Shown here: in pieces, positions 11,522 through 24,701 of the stretch
Layout of the letters: every line of letters begins with the position of its first letter
How positions within the stretch are numbered: position 1 is the stretch's first letter
DNA from: Halorhodospira halophila
GTDB taxonomy: Bacteria > Pseudomonadota > Gammaproteobacteria > Nitrococcales > Halorhodospiraceae
Assembly (NCBI RefSeq): GCF_016653405.1
Contig: NZ_NHSN01000015.1
Coordinates: forward strand, 50,891 to 114,890
Direction of reading: 5' to 3'
Length of the DNA: 64,000 bases
Position numbers and translations under genes: made by a program
Notes under the pieces: model-generated
Seen by the model: only the letters and a program-made list of their open reading frames with translations
Told to the model about the DNA's origin: nothing
The model's database searches: none

Positions 11522-15568
<4,047 letters not shown>

Positions 15569-17873: not shown

Positions 17874-18158
17874 GGTTGCCTCCCGTCTCGATAGGTACCG
17901 GCCCCGCCGGATCCGGGGCCGTCTGAGTCGAGAGGCTACGCCGCGCGCAACAGCGCCGTGAAAGGACGCTTCGGCCTATGCATATTCCGCTGCGGCGGTG
18001 GCACGCGGCAGCGCCCCGCCCCGGAGACCGTGTCAAGACAACCGCAGTGATCGGATTGCCGCACCCGGGCATTCCCCTGTTTCGTCGATGTGATAGCGTA
18101 TCAACATCACGGATCGCCGGGTTCCTGGCCCGGCACTGGCACCAGCGAGGAACCGCCC
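17874..18158. other. Intergenic region between yedE-like and PAS-GGDEF-EAL genes
   Basis: This 285-base divergent region shows an imperfect hairpin (CGGCCCC/GGGGCCG around 17904-17926) near the yedE-like start, and a long part with no coding signal. Promoters for both genes must lie here; none is clear. A CysB site would be expected if cysB controls the permease, but CysB sites are too degenerate to call by eye. Confidence 0.35.
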
Positions 18159-20621
18159 TTGCCGAGCGGTCGCGACCCCCAGCATCAACGCAGTGCCGTC
18201 CTGGCAACCCCGGTGACCATCGCCGCCCAGGGGGCGGAGGCGTGCGACTGGCTGCGCGCCCTGGACGCCCTCTCCGAGCCGGTGTTCATCCACGACGAGC
18301 ACTACCGCATCCTCGCCGCCAACCGGGCCTACGCCGAGCGGGCCGGGCTGGCCCCGGAGGAGTTCCGGCTGCGCCCCTACTGGGAGGTCTTCCCCCGCCG
18401 GGACGGCCCCTTGCCCAGCTGCCGCGCCGCCATGGAGCAGGGCCGCTGCGGCGAACGCCGGGGCAGCGGCGAGATCACCGAGGAGCTGGCCCTGCCCACC
18501 GGCGAGATCCTCATTTCGCGCTCGTTCGCCGTCACCGACGCCGAAGGCCGCTACAGACAGTCGGTGCACATCCTCGAGGACATCACCGAGCAGCGCCGGC
18601 GCGAGCACCGGCTGAGCGTCGCCGAGTCCCGCGCTCGCGAGCGCGAGCACCAGCTCGACCGGGTCCTGAGCAACACCGCCGAGGGCATCCTGGTGGTGGA
18701 TGACCACGGGCGGATCGTCTACGCCAACGCCACCGCCGGCACCCTCACCGGCCACCCGCCCGCCGAGCTGATCGGCCAGGTCTTCGGCTTCCCGGTGGCG
18801 ACCGGGGCGCCCCAGGAGATCGAACTGCGGACCGGCGAAGGCGGCAGCCGGATCGTCGAGATGCGGGCGCGGACCATGCGCTGGGAGGGCGATCCGGCCT
18901 TCGTCCTCAACCTCCACGACGTGACCGAGCGTAAGCGCGTCGAGCGCGAGCTGCGCCAGGCGGCCATCGTCTTCGAGGAGGCCCGCGAGGGGGTGATCAT
19001 CACCGACGCCGAGGCCACCATCGTCGCCGTCAACCGGGCCTTCACCCGCATCACCGGCTACGAGGAGGACCAGGCCCTCGGCCGCAACCCCCGCTTCCTC
19101 GCCTCCGGCTTCCACAGCCAGGCCTTCTACGAGGCCATGTGGGAGGCAATCCGCAGCCACGGCTACTGGACCGGAGAGATCTGGAACCGCCGCAACGACG
19201 GCACCACCTTCGCCGAGCTGGCCACCATCCGCGAGCTGCGCGACGAGTCCGGCCACCCCACCCACTACATCGGGGTGTTCTCGGACATCTCGCGGATCAA
19301 GGAGTACCAGAGCCAGCTCGAGCGGGTCATGCATCTGGATCCGCTCACCGAGCTGCCCAACCGCCTGCTCTTCCAGGACCGCCTGGAGCAGGCCCTGCGC
19401 CAGCACCAGCGCCAGCGCCGGCGCGGCGGCGACAGCACGGTGGCGGTGCTGATCGTCGATCTGAGTGATTTCCGCGCCGTCAACGACAGCCTCGGCCACG
19501 CCATCGGCGACCGCACCCTGCGGATCATTGGCGAGCGGCTCGACGCCGCCGTGGGCGACTCGGCCACGGTGGCACGGCTCAGCGGCGACGAGTTCGGCGT
19601 GCTGCTGCCCCAGCTGGTCAGCACCGACGATGCCGCCGGCACCGCCGAGCGGCTGATCGCCGCCGCCGAGGCACCGCTGGAGATCGAGGGCCACCAGATC
19701 CCCATCACCCTGCGCGTCGGCCTGAGCACCTTCCCGGACCAGGCCCAGGGCGCCAGCGTACTGCTCGAGCAGGCCGACGCCGCCATGTACGAGGCCAAGA
19801 GCGAGGGCGTGGGCTACCGCTTCTTCAGCGAGGAGCTGACCGAGCGCGCCCGCGAGCGCATCGAGCTCGGCGCCGAACTGCGCCAGGCCCTGGCCAGCGA
19901 CGCCCTGGACCTGCACTTCCAGCCCCAGGCGGACCTGGCCAGCGGGCAATGGATCGGGCTCGAGGCGCTGTTGCGGTGGCCGCACCCGGAACGCGGTCCG
20001 ATCTCGCCGGCGCGATTTATCCCGGTGGCCGAGCACGCCGGTCTGATGGGCCAGCTCGGCGCCTGGGTTCTGCGCCGTGCCTGCCGGCAGTACCAGGCCC
20101 TGCTCCGCAACGGGCGGGACTGGGGGCGCCTGGCGGTCAACATCACCGCCCCCGAGCTCGCCGATCCCGGTTTCGTCGGCCGCGTGCTGAGCACCCTGGA
20201 CGAGACCGGGCTGCCGCCCGACCGCCTGGAGCTGGAGATCACCGAGAGCCTGCTGGTGAACACCGACACGCGGGTCATCGCCCGCCTCGACGAACTGCGC
20301 CGCCACGGCGTTCGCGTGGCCGTGGACGATTTCGGCACCGGCTACTCGGCGCTCAGTTACCTCAAGGATCTACCCGTGGACCGGCTGAAGATCGACCGCT
20401 CCTTTGTCGACAACGTCGATCAGCCCTCCCGCGGGGCGACGATCACCCGGGCCATCCTCGCCCTCGGCCACAGCCTGGAGCTGGAGGTCATCGCCGAGGG
20501 CATCGAGACCGTGGCCCAGCGCGACGCCCTGCTGGAGGCCGGCTGCCTCCAGGGCCAGGGCTACCTGCTGGCGCGACCGGCGCCGCTGGAACAGCTCACC
20601 CCGCCCGACCCGCCCTCCTAG
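18159..20621 (+). CDS. PAS-PAS-PAS-GGDEF-EAL c-di-GMP protein
   Basis: About 820 soluble residues. The TTG at 18159 is chosen because GAGGAA lies six bases ahead; the frame also opens at a GTG at 18090. Three PAS domains are visible: one with FIHDEHYRILAANRAYAERAG, one with VVDDHGRIVYANATAG, and one with ITDAEATIVAVNRAFTRITGY. A diguanylate cyclase domain follows with SGDEF in place of GGDEF and no RxxD inhibitory site. The EAL domain is complete: LEALLRW, AVNITAPEL, ELEITESLL, VDDFGTGYSAL, KIDRSF and EGIET. Net activity is probably phosphodiesterase with possible residual cyclase. It is transcribed towards the trehalose cluster but separated from it by about 90 bases. Confidence 0.9.
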   Translation: MPSGRDPQHQRSAVLATPVTIAAQGAEACDWLRALDALSEPVFIHDEHYRILAANRAYAERAGLAPEEFRLRPYWEVFPRRDGPLPSCRAAMEQGRCGERRGSGEITEELALPTGEILISRSFAVTDAEGRYRQSVHILEDITEQRRREHRLSVAESRAREREHQLDRVLSNTAEGILVVDDHGRIVYANATAGTLTGHPPAELIGQVFGFPVATGAPQEIELRTGEGGSRIVEMRARTMRWEGDPAFVLNLHDVTERKRVERELRQAAIVFEEAREGVIITDAEATIVAVNRAFTRITGYEEDQALGRNPRFLASGFHSQAFYEAMWEAIRSHGYWTGEIWNRRNDGTTFAELATIRELRDESGHPTHYIGVFSDISRIKEYQSQLERVMHLDPLTELPNRLLFQDRLEQALRQHQRQRRRGGDSTVAVLIVDLSDFRAVNDSLGHAIGDRTLRIIGERLDAAVGDSATVARLSGDEFGVLLPQLVSTDDAAGTAERLIAAAEAPLEIEGHQIPITLRVGLSTFPDQAQGASVLLEQADAAMYEAKSEGVGYRFFSEELTERARERIELGAELRQALASDALDLHFQPQADLASGQWIGLEALLRWPHPERGPISPARFIPVAEHAGLMGQLGAWVLRRACRQYQALLRNGRDWGRLAVNITAPELADPGFVGRVLSTLDETGLPPDRLELEITESLLVNTDTRVIARLDELRRHGVRVAVDDFGTGYSALSYLKDLPVDRLKIDRSFVDNVDQPSRGATITRAILALGHSLELEVIAEGIETVAQRDALLEAGCLQGQGYLLARPAPLEQLTPPDPPS

Positions 20622-20709: not shown

Positions 20710-21462
20710 GTGAACCTAATGGATCCGTCAGCCGTTGACATCGCCGATTACCAGGCCGCCATCTTCGACATGGACGGCGTGGTCACCCGTACCGCCACGG
20801 TGCACGCCCGGGCGTGGAAGGAGATGTTCGACGCCTTCCTGCAGGCGCATGCCGAGCGAACCGGCACCCCCTTCGCCCCCTTCGACGCAGAGACCGAGTA
20901 CTGGGAGCACGTCGACGGCCTGCCGCGCCAGGAGGGCGTGCGCCGTTTCCTGGCCGCGCGCGGCATCGACCTGCCCGAGGGCGAAGAGGACGACCCACCG
21001 GAACACGACACCATCCACGGCCTGGGCCGCCGCAAGGACGCACTGATCCAGGCGGTCATCGAGCGCGACGGCGTGGAGGTCTTCCCGGACTGGCTGGAGC
21101 GGGTCCGGCAGTGGCGGGCCGCCGGGGTGCGCACGGCCATCGTCTCCTCGAGCCGCAACTGCCGTCGGATGATCCAGGCCGCCGGAATCGAGACCCTGTT
21201 CGACGCCCGGGTGGACGGCGAGACCGCCCGCGAGCTGGGCCTGCGTGGCAAGCCGGATGCCGACATCTTCCTGGTCGCCGCCGAGCGGCTGGGGGTGGCC
21301 CCGGGACAGAGCGTAGTCTTCGAAGACGCCATCTCCGGCGTCCAGGCCGGCGCCGCCGGGCCCTTCGCCCTGGTGGTGGGCGTGGCCCGCCACGACAATC
21401 ACGATGTCCTGCGTGCCCACGGCGCCGACGTCGCCGTGGCGGCGCTGACCGAACTGAGCTGA
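20710..21462 (+). CDS. HAD-family hydrolase, beta-phosphoglucomutase type
   Basis: 250 residues. The GTG at 20710 is preferred over the ATG at 20719 because AAGGAGG lies nine bases before the GTG. HAD motif I is FDMDGVV with Asp20/Asp22. Motif II is the Ser in IVSSSRN, motif III the Lys in LRGKPDADIF, and motif IV FEDAISGV. The cap domain and the SSSRN segment match beta-phosphoglucomutase-family proteins, which turn beta-glucose 1-phosphate into glucose 6-phosphate. The neighbouring GH65 phosphorylase would make that substrate, a pairing common in other bacteria. It is the first gene of a three-gene cluster (gaps 19 and 13 bases). Confidence 0.88.
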   Translation: MNLMDPSAVDIADYQAAIFDMDGVVTRTATVHARAWKEMFDAFLQAHAERTGTPFAPFDAETEYWEHVDGLPRQEGVRRFLAARGIDLPEGEEDDPPEHDTIHGLGRRKDALIQAVIERDGVEVFPDWLERVRQWRAAGVRTAIVSSSRNCRRMIQAAGIETLFDARVDGETARELGLRGKPDADIFLVAAERLGVAPGQSVVFEDAISGVQAGAAGPFALVVGVARHDNHDVLRAHGADVAVAALTELS

Positions 21463-21481
21463 GCCACAGGAGGCGCAAGCG

Positions 21482-22264
21482 ATGCAATCCCCCCCGGAGC
21501 TGTTCGAACCGGCGGTGCTCGATGAACTGCGCACGCGCATGGAGGGGCGGAGCACGCCGCTGTTCCTCGACTACGACGGCACCCTGACGCCGATCGTCGA
21601 CGACCCGGCCGAGGCGCGGCTGGATCCGGCCATGCACGCGGCGCTGGAGCAGCTGGCCGCCCGCCACACCGTGGCCCTGGTCAGCGGCCGCGACCTGCAG
21701 GCGCTGCAGGCGTTCGTCGGTCTGGAGTCGGTCTATTACGCGGGCAGCCACGGCTTCGAGATCGTCGGCCCCGGCGGCGTACACCGCTGCAACGAAGAGG
21801 CCGAGGCCGGCCTGGACGCCCTGGCCGCGGCGGCCGAGGAACTCGACGACGCCCTCGCGGCGGTCGAGGGCACCCTGCTCGAGCGCAAGCGCTTCGCCCT
21901 CGCCGTGCACTACCGGAATACGCCGGAGGATCAGGTCGAGCGCGTCCGGGCCGCCGTGGACGGGGTGCTTGAGCGCCACCCGCAGCTGCGCTGCGGGCCG
22001 GGCAAGTGCGTCTTCGAGCTGCAGCCGGACGTCGCCTGGGACAAGGGCCGCGCGGTGCTCTGGCTGCTTGAGGCGCTGTCGCTGAACAACGGCGACACCC
22101 TGCCCATCTACATCGGCGACGACTGGACCGATGAGCACGCCTTCCGGGCCCTGGAGGGCCGCGGCGTGGGCATCTTCGTCGGCGAGCCCGACCGCGCCAC
22201 CGCCGCCGACTACCGGCTGGCCGACGTGGCCGCCGTCCGCCAATTCTTCGAGCAGATGCTGTGA
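21482..22264 (+). CDS. otsB: Trehalose-6-phosphate phosphatase
   Basis: 260 residues, HAD superfamily type IIB. Motif I is PLFLDYDGTLTPI with Asp30 and Asp32; SGRD and GSHGFE mark the OtsB cap; GDDWTDEHAF carries the Mg-binding acids. It hydrolyses trehalose 6-phosphate to trehalose, a compatible solute. AGGAGG sits ahead of the ATG. No trehalose-6-phosphate synthase (OtsA) gene is beside it, so the substrate must come from elsewhere on the chromosome. It is sandwiched between the phosphoglucomutase-like and GH65 genes, placing a synthetic and a breakdown step in one transcript. Confidence 0.92.
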   Translation: MQSPPELFEPAVLDELRTRMEGRSTPLFLDYDGTLTPIVDDPAEARLDPAMHAALEQLAARHTVALVSGRDLQALQAFVGLESVYYAGSHGFEIVGPGGVHRCNEEAEAGLDALAAAAEELDDALAAVEGTLLERKRFALAVHYRNTPEDQVERVRAAVDGVLERHPQLRCGPGKCVFELQPDVAWDKGRAVLWLLEALSLNNGDTLPIYIGDDWTDEHAFRALEGRGVGIFVGEPDRATAADYRLADVAAVRQFFEQML

Positions 22265-22277
22265 AGGGGCTTCAGCG

Positions 22278-24701
22278 ATGACGCTACCGGAGACCGAAGG
22301 CTGGCAACTGACCTACCAGGGCTGGCTGCCCGAGGAGCAGCAGCACCGCGAGGCGATCTGCGTGCTGGGCAATGGCCGTTTCGCGACCCGCGGCGCCTTC
22401 GAGGGGGCCGCCGCCGGCGACATCCACTACCCCGGCACCTACATGGCCGGCGGCTACAACCGTCGCACCAGTCTGGTCTCCGGCCGCGAGGTGGAGAACG
22501 AGGACCTGGTCAATCTGCCCAACTGGCTCTGCCTGAACTTCCGCCCGGCCGAGGGCGACTGGTTCGACTTCGACGGCGTGGAGTGGCTGGACCACCGGCA
22601 GACCCTGGACATGCGCCACGGGGTGCTGACCTGGCACCTGCACTTTCGCGACCCGCACGGGCGCGAGACGCGGCTGACCAGCCGGCGGCTGGTGCATATG
22701 GGCGACAGCCACCTGGCCGCGCTGCACTGGGAGCTGGAACCGGTGAACTGGACCGGCGCGCTGCACATCCGCTCAGGGATCGACGGCGGCGTCGAGAACC
22801 TCGGCGTGGCCCGTTACCGGGCCCTGGAGACCCGCCACCTGGATGTCCTCGCCACCGAACGCTGCAGCGACGAGGCGGTCATGCTGCGCAGCATGACCAA
22901 TCAGTCGCGCATCGACCTGGCCCACGCAGTGCGCACCCGGGCCTGGCAGGCCGACGGCCGCGGGCCGGAGCACCGCGAGCGGCTGGAGACCGACGACTAC
23001 ATCGGTGACGACCTGACCCTGCAGGCCGAGCCGGGGCAGCCGATCCGCGTCGAGAAGGTCGCCGCCTTCTACAGCGGCCGGGACCGGGCCATCTGCGAGC
23101 CGGGCATCGATGCGGCTTCCGCGGTGGAGCGCGCCCCGGCCTTCGACGAGCTGCTGCGCACCCACGCCAAGGCGTGGGAACGCTACTGGCGCGGCTGGGA
23201 CGTGACGCTGCATACCGACAACAACGGCGAGGCCGAGGAGCAGACGGTCCTGCGCCTGCACATCTTCCATCTGCTGCAGACCACCTCGCTGCACACCACC
23301 GATCTGGACGTGGGCGTTCCGGCGCGCGGCCTGCACGGCGAGGCCTACCGCGGGCACATCTTCTGGGACGAGCTGTTCATCCTGCCGCTGCTCAATCTGC
23401 ACAGCCCGGAGATCAGCCGCGCCCTGCTGATGTACCGCTACCGCCGCCTGCCCGAGGCGCGCCGGGCGGCTGCCGCCGAGGGGCTGCGTGGGGCCATGTA
23501 CCCGTGGCAGAGCGGCAGCAGCGGCCGCGAGGAGACGCAGACCCTGCACCTCAACCCGGCCTCGGGGCGCTGGCTGCCGGACAACACCCACCGCCAGCGC
23601 CACGTCAACGCCGCCATCGCCCACAACATCTGGCGCTACTATGAGGTCTCCGGCGACACCGACTTCATGGCCTTCGCCGGCGCCGAGATGATCCTGAGCA
23701 TCGCCCAGTTCTGGGCCAGCCTGGCCACCTACAACCCGCAGCGCCAGCGCTACGAGATCCGCGGCATCGTCGGCCCCGATGAGTTCCACACGCGCTATCC
23801 GGGCAGCGACGAGATCGGGCTGGCCAACAACGCCTACACCAATGTCATGGCCGCCTGGTGCCTGCGCATCGCCCGCCAGGCCCTGGAGGTCATCGGCCCG
23901 ACGCCACGCAGCGAGCTCCTCGACCGGCTGGCGATCGACGAGGCGGAACTCACCCGCTGGCAGGAGATCAGCCAGCGGATGTTCATCCCCTTCCACGGCG
24001 ACGGCATCATCAGCCAGTTCGAGGGCTACGACCAGCTCGAGGAACTGGACTGGGCCGGCTACCGCGAGCATTACGGCAACATCCAGCGGCTCGACCGGAT
24101 CCTTGAGGCCGAGGGCGATGACGTCAACCGCTACCAGGCGAGCAAGCAGGCCGACCTGCTGATGCTCTTCTACCTGTTCTCCCGGCAGCAGATCGAAACC
24201 CTGTTCGCCGACATGGGCTACGAGCTCGACGCCGAGGCCATCCCGCGCAACATCGCCTACTACGAGGCGCGCACCTCCCACGGCTCGACGCTGAGCAACA
24301 TCGTCCACTCGTGGGTGCTGGCGCGCTCCGACCGGCAGCGCTCCTGGGATCTGTTCGGCAACGCGCTGATCAGCGACCTGGGCGACATCCAGGGCGGCAC
24401 CACCAAGGAGGGCATCCACCTCGGGGCCATGGCCGGCACCGTGGACCTGGCGCTGCGCGGCTACACCGGCATGGAACCGCGGGACGGCATCCTGTGGCTC
24501 GATCCCATGCTGCCCGATGGGCTCCACGAGGTGGAGCACAAGATCCATTATCGCGGCCACTGGATCCACCTGGTGGTCAATCACACCCGGCTCACCCTGC
24601 GCCTGGAGGAGGGGCCGTGGCCGCCGGTGCGCATCGGCTACCGCAACGAGGTCCACGACCTGCACCAGGGCGAGACCCTGGAGCTGGCCTACCAGCGCTG
24701 A
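22278..24701 (+). CDS. GH65 family disaccharide phosphorylase (trehalose/kojibiose/maltose type)
   Basis: 807 residues. The N-terminal super-beta-sandwich (about 1-280) contains ICVLGNGRFATRGAFEG. The (alpha/alpha)6 catalytic barrel includes HGEAYRGHIFWDELFILPLL, PWQSGSSGREETQ, and the general acid Glu502 in GPDEFH. HGSTLSNIVHSWV and GTTKEGIHLGAMAGTVDL are the phosphate-binding region. GH65 phosphorylases split an alpha-linked glucose disaccharide with phosphate into glucose and beta-glucose 1-phosphate. Given the adjacent otsB and beta-phosphoglucomutase-like genes, trehalose is the likeliest substrate, but kojibiose or maltose cannot be excluded. Length is typical. Confidence 0.88.
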   Translation: MTLPETEGWQLTYQGWLPEEQQHREAICVLGNGRFATRGAFEGAAAGDIHYPGTYMAGGYNRRTSLVSGREVENEDLVNLPNWLCLNFRPAEGDWFDFDGVEWLDHRQTLDMRHGVLTWHLHFRDPHGRETRLTSRRLVHMGDSHLAALHWELEPVNWTGALHIRSGIDGGVENLGVARYRALETRHLDVLATERCSDEAVMLRSMTNQSRIDLAHAVRTRAWQADGRGPEHRERLETDDYIGDDLTLQAEPGQPIRVEKVAAFYSGRDRAICEPGIDAASAVERAPAFDELLRTHAKAWERYWRGWDVTLHTDNNGEAEEQTVLRLHIFHLLQTTSLHTTDLDVGVPARGLHGEAYRGHIFWDELFILPLLNLHSPEISRALLMYRYRRLPEARRAAAAEGLRGAMYPWQSGSSGREETQTLHLNPASGRWLPDNTHRQRHVNAAIAHNIWRYYEVSGDTDFMAFAGAEMILSIAQFWASLATYNPQRQRYEIRGIVGPDEFHTRYPGSDEIGLANNAYTNVMAAWCLRIARQALEVIGPTPRSELLDRLAIDEAELTRWQEISQRMFIPFHGDGIISQFEGYDQLEELDWAGYREHYGNIQRLDRILEAEGDDVNRYQASKQADLLMLFYLFSRQQIETLFADMGYELDAEAIPRNIAYYEARTSHGSTLSNIVHSWVLARSDRQRSWDLFGNALISDLGDIQGGTTKEGIHLGAMAGTVDLALRGYTGMEPRDGILWLDPMLPDGLHEVEHKIHYRGHWIHLVVNHTRLTLRLEEGPWPPVRIGYRNEVHDLHQGETLELAYQR

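Follow-up and report, generated by a model that had tools for sequence, protein, structure and literature searches.

What is a gene for trehalose-6-phosphate phosphatase (OtsB) doing between a gene resembling β-phosphoglucomutase (β-PGM) and a gene for a phosphorylase of family GH65? The question is raised by a stretch of 64,000 nucleotides from Halorhodospira halophila (contig NZ_NHSN01000015.1, positions 50,891 to 114,890), referred to below as the window, in which the three genes (Table 1) are separated by only 19 bases (P0001/P0002) and 13 bases (P0002/P0003); we infer that they are co-transcribed. A sequence-only reading of the window had described otsB lying between the two other genes with gaps of 13-19 bases, as a gene group of trehalose metabolism; the open reading frames, gaps and family models agree with this, and eight of the nine genomes of the genus keep the order. 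The answer reached here is that the GH65 enzyme has, with high probability, trehalose 6-phosphate (T6P) as its real substrate, and that the operon could be a self-contained T6P module for the synthesis of trehalose without UDP-glucose, a proposal for which we hold the chances to be even.

Table 1. Genes of the three-gene run, with positions counted in the window
Product	Position	Strand	Characteristics
β-phosphoglucomutase-like HAD protein (P0001, 250 aa)	20710..21462	+	GTG start; strong Shine-Dalgarno sequence of the AAGGAGGT type ahead
OtsB, trehalose-6-phosphate phosphatase (P0002, 260 aa)	21482..22264	+	TIGR00685, PF02358
GH65 phosphorylase, predicted trehalose-6-phosphate phosphorylase (P0003, 807 aa)	22278..24701	+	GH65 Pfam domains, fingerprint DQGQDE

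P0002 scored 191.6 bits against the T6P-phosphatase equivalog (cut-off 68.05), also passed the Pfam model, and contains all the HAD catalytic residues (DxDxT, SGR, K, GDDxTDE). P0003 spans the three GH65 domains PF03636, PF03632 and PF03633, each over its cut-off, and carries GPDEF and KQAD, the catalytic-acid and phosphate-site motifs of the family. Among solved structures it was closest to 9lb6 (449 bits), entitled 'Trehalose-6-phosphate hydrolase' by its depositors, with a wide lead over the kojibiose phosphorylase 3wiq (303 bits). P0001 passed the β-phosphoglucomutase subfamily model TIGR02009 (168.8 bits, cut-off 153.35) and fell below the cut-off of the equivalog TIGR01990 (96.8 against 189.4 bits), so its β-PGM activity is predicted on the strength of the active-site residues and the neighbouring genes. 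Its nearest solved structure is 8h5s, 'Beta-phosphoglucomutase' (E 7e-65), and its residues D20, D22, T28, H32, R73, S146, S148, N150, K181, E205 and D206 agree with the active-site set of Lactococcus lactis β-PGM, the equivalents of R49, S116 and N118 included. Close relatives of the locus, with 97-98% identity, occur in two metagenome-assembled genomes (MAGs) of Ectothiorhodospiraceae (L006 and L007). Directly upstream, on the same strand (18090-20621), lies an open frame of 843 aa which by eye has the look of a PAS-GGDEF-EAL signalling protein.

The specificity of GH65 enzymes has been related to six positions by De Beul et al. 2021 (PMC8537180). According to that paper, these read TRIGPP in the trehalose phosphorylase TbGP and DQGQDE in the T6P phosphorylase CaGP, both confirmed by assay, EEAPxx in kojibiose phosphorylases and KV[MF]NES in maltose phosphorylases. 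The positions were read in the numbering of 3wiq (CsKP 64/392/394/402/416/585; anchors W391, E392 and T417 checked) in an alignment of 73 rows, comprising 70 GH65 loci, P0003 and two solved chains. P0003 reads DQGQDE, identical at all six positions to CaGP as given there and different from the TRIGPP type (EC 2.4.1.64). DQGQDE or a near form was found in 46 of the 73 rows (30 exact, 16 variants or truncated rows), the other 27 being of other types. The letter at position 416 depends on gap placement: a plain alignment gives W in nearly all rows, and the gap-free, right-anchored reading gives D and also restores, in locus L048, the E published for maltose phosphorylases.

The tree agrees with the fingerprint. 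In a quick maximum-likelihood tree of 65 rows, supported by the Shimodaira-Hasegawa-like approximate likelihood ratio test (SH-aLRT) only and with long branches at L048, L054, 9lb6 and 3wiq, a branch with an SH-aLRT of 100 separated 47 rows, namely the GH65s of the cassette, as the gene group is called from here on, and relatives of the phosphotransferase system (PTS) type, from the kojibiose, maltose and TR-type sequences. Rows of 480 residues or fewer were left out of this tree, as were L002, L005, L067, L068, L070, L071, L072, L098 and L100 (short, duplicate or remote). One of the PTS-type relatives, L053 of genome G332 (C2:47846-50119), has the same DQGQDE motif and adjoins pgmB and a gene for PTS-IIBC-Tre (C2:50533-51888, over cut-off); since the sugar entering through this transporter is T6P, T6P must be the substrate of that GH65. 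P0003 would accordingly share T6P with OtsB, its fingerprint being of the T6P-phosphorylase type, and three basic residues conserved specifically in the clade (R390, R441 and H504) may bind the 6-phosphate.

This result bears on the mechanism first suggested for the locus, in which the two enzymes perform opposite steps on trehalose: OtsB would make the sugar, and GH65, as a trehalose phosphorylase, would with β-PGM return it to glucose and glucose 6-phosphate. Trehalose phosphorylases do occur in GH65, TreY is found near the cassette in genome G012, and in Nitrobacter a glucokinase gene adjoins a β-PGM-GH65 fusion. However, the fingerprint is DQGQDE and not TRIGPP as published for TbGP, and the TR-type sequences form a separate, well supported group; on these two results the reading of P0003 as a trehalose phosphorylase was rejected. 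Moreover, free glucose would find no glucokinase in the operon; beside otsA, elsewhere in the genome, there are already a GH15 trehalase-like gene and a glucokinase; and OtsB would be left without a substrate in those genomes that lack OtsA. Such a loop is improbable.

The three enzymes could be joined in the other direction. Of the interconversion catalysed by β-PGM, the step from glucose 6-phosphate to β-glucose 1-phosphate would be used; GH65, acting in synthesis, would condense β-glucose 1-phosphate with a second glucose 6-phosphate to T6P and phosphate, and OtsB would hydrolyse T6P to trehalose and phosphate and thereby pull the chain forward. The net reaction would convert two molecules of glucose 6-phosphate into trehalose and two of phosphate, with neither UDP-glucose nor OtsA. 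CaGP formed T6P from β-glucose 1-phosphate and glucose 6-phosphate (PMC8537180). With the T6P phosphorylase of L. lactis working in synthesis, T6P was obtained in vitro from maltose in 93% yield (PMC13121652), so that the synthetic direction is chemically sound. The earlier suggestion that GH65 could run synthetically is judged right, and we give a net synthetic flux through the operon about an even chance. The pathway is plausible as a new combination of known kinds of enzyme.

The absence of otsA, which had been noted from the window, holds for the window and not for the genome (G000 in our numbering of genomes). A genome search found a single GT20 (OtsA) gene on another contig (G000:C17:119187-120479), scoring 540.8 bits against TIGR02400, slightly below the cut-off of 564.85, and flanked by the GH15 trehalase-like gene and glucokinase mentioned above; a genome without otsA is thereby ruled out. 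The single OtsB (sole PF02358 match) and the single GH65 of G000 both lie in the window, on C15, and the adjacency of otsA and otsB known from OtsAB operons is absent. The cassette OtsB, being the only one in the genome, would also have to serve the OtsA encoded on the other contig.

The genus shows how this may have come about. That the three-gene order is kept in eight of nine congeners indicates that the neighbourhood did not arise by chance. The ninth (G023) has no GH65 match and possesses instead a cluster otsB-GH15-otsA, an arrangement also described for Spiribacter salinus (PMC5818414). In the eight congeners with GH65 the sole OtsB is that of the cassette, and no remnant of the usual otsB was detected by tblastn around the otsA cluster in G000 and G022; for these two reasons the usual otsB of this genus seems to have been replaced by that of the cassette.

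Since OtsA can also supply T6P, a second explanation remains for the window organism and is the main rival of the synthetic pathway. OtsA would make T6P, GH65 and β-PGM would return the surplus to two molecules of glucose 6-phosphate, and OtsB would send the remainder to trehalose, the operon setting the ratio of the branches and keeping T6P low. OtsA is present in this genome and in 15 of the 20 that have the cassette, the same GH65/β-PGM pair serves catabolism in the PTS-type relatives, and phosphoketolase or glucokinase stands beside relatives free of OtsB. Against it, T6P made by OtsA and then unmade would cost UTP, and such a valve cannot work in the five genomes that lack both GT20 and a trehalose PTS, but whose OtsB is intact and under selection all the same. 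On balance we regard it as unlikely, though clearly to be taken into account.

The genomes without OtsA bear on this choice. OtsB of the cassette type was found in 13 genomes of the order (G000, G020, G021, G022, G024-G027, G001, G002, G004, G012 and G018) and in seven outside it, chosen for having GH65 (G123, G069, G459, G506, G535, G542 and G659). No GT20 match was obtained in five of these 20 (G012, G018, G123, G542 and G659), whereas none of the 24 genomes of the order with OtsB of another type lacks GT20; this is a contrast and not a formal test, kinship being uncorrected. PTS-IIBC-Tre (TIGR01992) was found only in G332 among 12 genomes searched, with none in G000 or in the five. A second GH65 as a source of β-glucose 1-phosphate was likewise absent from the five (0 or 1 match each). 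The catalytic residues of OtsB are intact in 27/27 cassette-type matches, those of the five included, and the ratio of nonsynonymous to synonymous substitutions in OtsB was about 0.14 for G012/G018 (0.160/1.111), about 0.24 for G542/G659 (0.176/0.745) and about 0.18 for G012/G123 (0.316/1.76, saturated). OtsB is under purifying selection in the genomes without OtsA. A maintained OtsB needs T6P, and with neither OtsA nor PTS at hand GH65 would be its simplest source.

Several points weigh against synthesis as the function of the cassette. The equilibrium of β-PGM lies towards glucose 6-phosphate, so that the chain depends on the pull exerted by OtsB hydrolysis. Although some genomes without GT20 have the cassette, GT20 is present in the other 15 of the 20, where T6P could come from OtsA and then be broken down. 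The absence of GT20 rests mostly on draft assemblies; G018 is 87% complete, with a contig that ends right after OtsB, and the five genomes, which belong to 5 genera and 3 families, need not represent five independent events. In G012 a TreY gene is located some 5 kb away from the cassette, so that trehalose is available there without OtsA; alpha-amylase-family genes occur near the cassette of G123. The OtsB-free relatives adjoin phosphoketolase or glucokinase, which suggests that they work in breakdown. No assay of any cassette enzyme was found in the literature searched.

Some GT20 matches in the order deserve separate mention. In G011, G014 and G015, genomes without an OtsB match, GT20 is part of open frames of 763-783 aa, which we would guess to be fusions of the glucosylglycerol-phosphate type. 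In G001 the match lies in three pieces in one run (G001:C1:88951-90352), which may be a broken otsA or reflect sequence errors; a second OtsB adjoins it.

A further explanation concerns the acceptor, which could be a phosphorylated compound other than glucose 6-phosphate, GH65 transferring glucose to or from it and OtsB dephosphorylating the product to a different compatible solute. Six positions define the acceptor incompletely, and with HQGPDE, DQGDDE and RAPDR among the sister sequences acceptor specificity may drift within the clade; yet P0003 has exactly the motif of the assayed T6P phosphorylase, and its OtsB passes the T6P-phosphatase equivalog, which makes this a distant alternative. 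Further departures from the motif are seen in two members of the clade, L040 on a Skermanella rosea plasmid (5977-8397), located directly after a ribokinase gene, and L054 of G107; their fingerprints SRAPDR/ARAPDR possibly reflect a different acceptor.

Within the order, close GH65s were present in 15 of 54 genomes and adjoined OtsB in 12 of these 15, OtsB being found beside otsA and not beside GH65 in G003, G033 and G034. G018, with a fused β-PGM-OtsB at a contig end, was counted as a cassette genome although its GH65 would lie past that end. A GH65 match was obtained in 21 of 397 genomes sampled from the phylum, the close cassette types being limited to G000, G123 and G069, and other GH65 groups were not counted as cassettes. 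In a second sample of 389 genomes the cassette clade was represented in six (G069, G459, G506, G535, G542 and G659), five further matches being other GH65 groups; G459, where GH65 and a β-PGM-OtsB fusion lie on opposite strands about 5 kb apart, was counted as a cassette genome. OtsB was present somewhere in all 22 genomes examined that have a cassette-clade GH65, and no match to it was found in the PTS-type G332 and the RAP-type G107.

Several forms of the cassette were distinguished. The three genes are separate in the genus of the window, in G542 and G659 and in a Rhodospirillales MAG (L004). A β-PGM-OtsB fusion accompanies GH65 in G001, G002, G004, G012, G123, G069, G506, G535, Indioceanicola, Croceicoccus and Legionella, and OtsB and GH65 occur without a neighbouring β-PGM in Rubrobacter. 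Fusions of β-PGM to GH65 without OtsB were found in G033, G034, Nitrobacter, Mycolicibacterium, Caballeronia, Rhodococcus aetherivorans and Corynebacterium marinum. In the Caballeronia sp. SBC2 plasmid (L041) the β-PGM part of the fusion lacks key active-site residues, most of which are present in a separate β-PGM-like gene some 4 kb further downstream (14209-14994). Relatives lie on islands concerned with stress or fermentation, where universal stress proteins, phosphoketolase or polyphosphate kinase are encoded. Among actinobacterial plasmids, L035, L045, L046 and L047 carry OtsB-free GH65 relatives with the fingerprint HQGPDE, three of them β-PGM-GH65 fusions, and L045-L047 adjoin genes for phosphoketolase, the islands in which they lie also encoding heavy-metal or copper ATPases; these GH65 enzymes may differ in substrate.

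A plasmid of Rhodococcus sp. DK176 (L033, 4837-8403) encodes an OtsB-GH65 fusion (fingerprint SQGQDE, universal stress protein genes nearby) with a degenerate N-terminal part. As this β-PGM part is degenerate, a triple fusion was dismissed; OtsB and GH65 are joined in one protein there, whereas in the window all three genes stand apart and are intact. The mycobacterial OtsB1 (Rv2006, 1327 aa) presumably has the domain order HAD - OtsB - GH65.

The cassette shares features with several known pathways and differs from each. The lactic-acid-bacterial trehalose PTS - TrePP (EC 2.4.1.216) - pgmB system, of which G332 has a version, contains the same GH65 fingerprint and a β-phosphoglucomutase; in that system T6P is brought in by the PTS and then degraded, whereas in the cassette OtsB stands where the PTS would. 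OtsB and the intermediate T6P are shared with the OtsA/OtsB (TPS/TPP) pathway, but the predicted T6P maker beside OtsB is GH65 and not GT20, which some cassette genomes lack. The reversible TreP pathway also employs a GH65 enzyme and β-glucose 1-phosphate, with glucose as the acceptor in place of the glucose 6-phosphate predicted here and with a different fingerprint and clade. A 2025 review (PMC12125463) assigns synthesis to TPS/TPP and TreYZ, reversible action to TreP, TreS and TreT, and T6P degradation only to TrePP. The pathway was not described in the titles and abstract openings of the literature searched, which largely leaves out subscription papers. It falls a little short of an even chance, in our estimate, that the cassette is a natural, previously undescribed route to trehalose free of nucleotide sugars, composed of β-PGM, reverse T6P phosphorylase and OtsB, occurring as three genes, in fused form and on plasmids across several phyla, acting as the sole source of T6P in bacteria without OtsA and giving the mycobacterial OtsB1-type fusion a testable function.

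M. tuberculosis OtsB1 is reported to be linked to DosR and biochemically uncharacterised, and in the study concerned it appeared under carbon starvation alone (PMC12090744); its deletion reportedly gave no obvious phenotype (PMC11046441). The reading proposed here would make its function directly testable. If it is true, a T6P phosphorylase coupled to OtsB would constitute an additional way of making a major stress protectant, and its sparing of UTP may suit energy-limited cells, as the occurrence of relatives on stress or fermentation islands would lead one to think.

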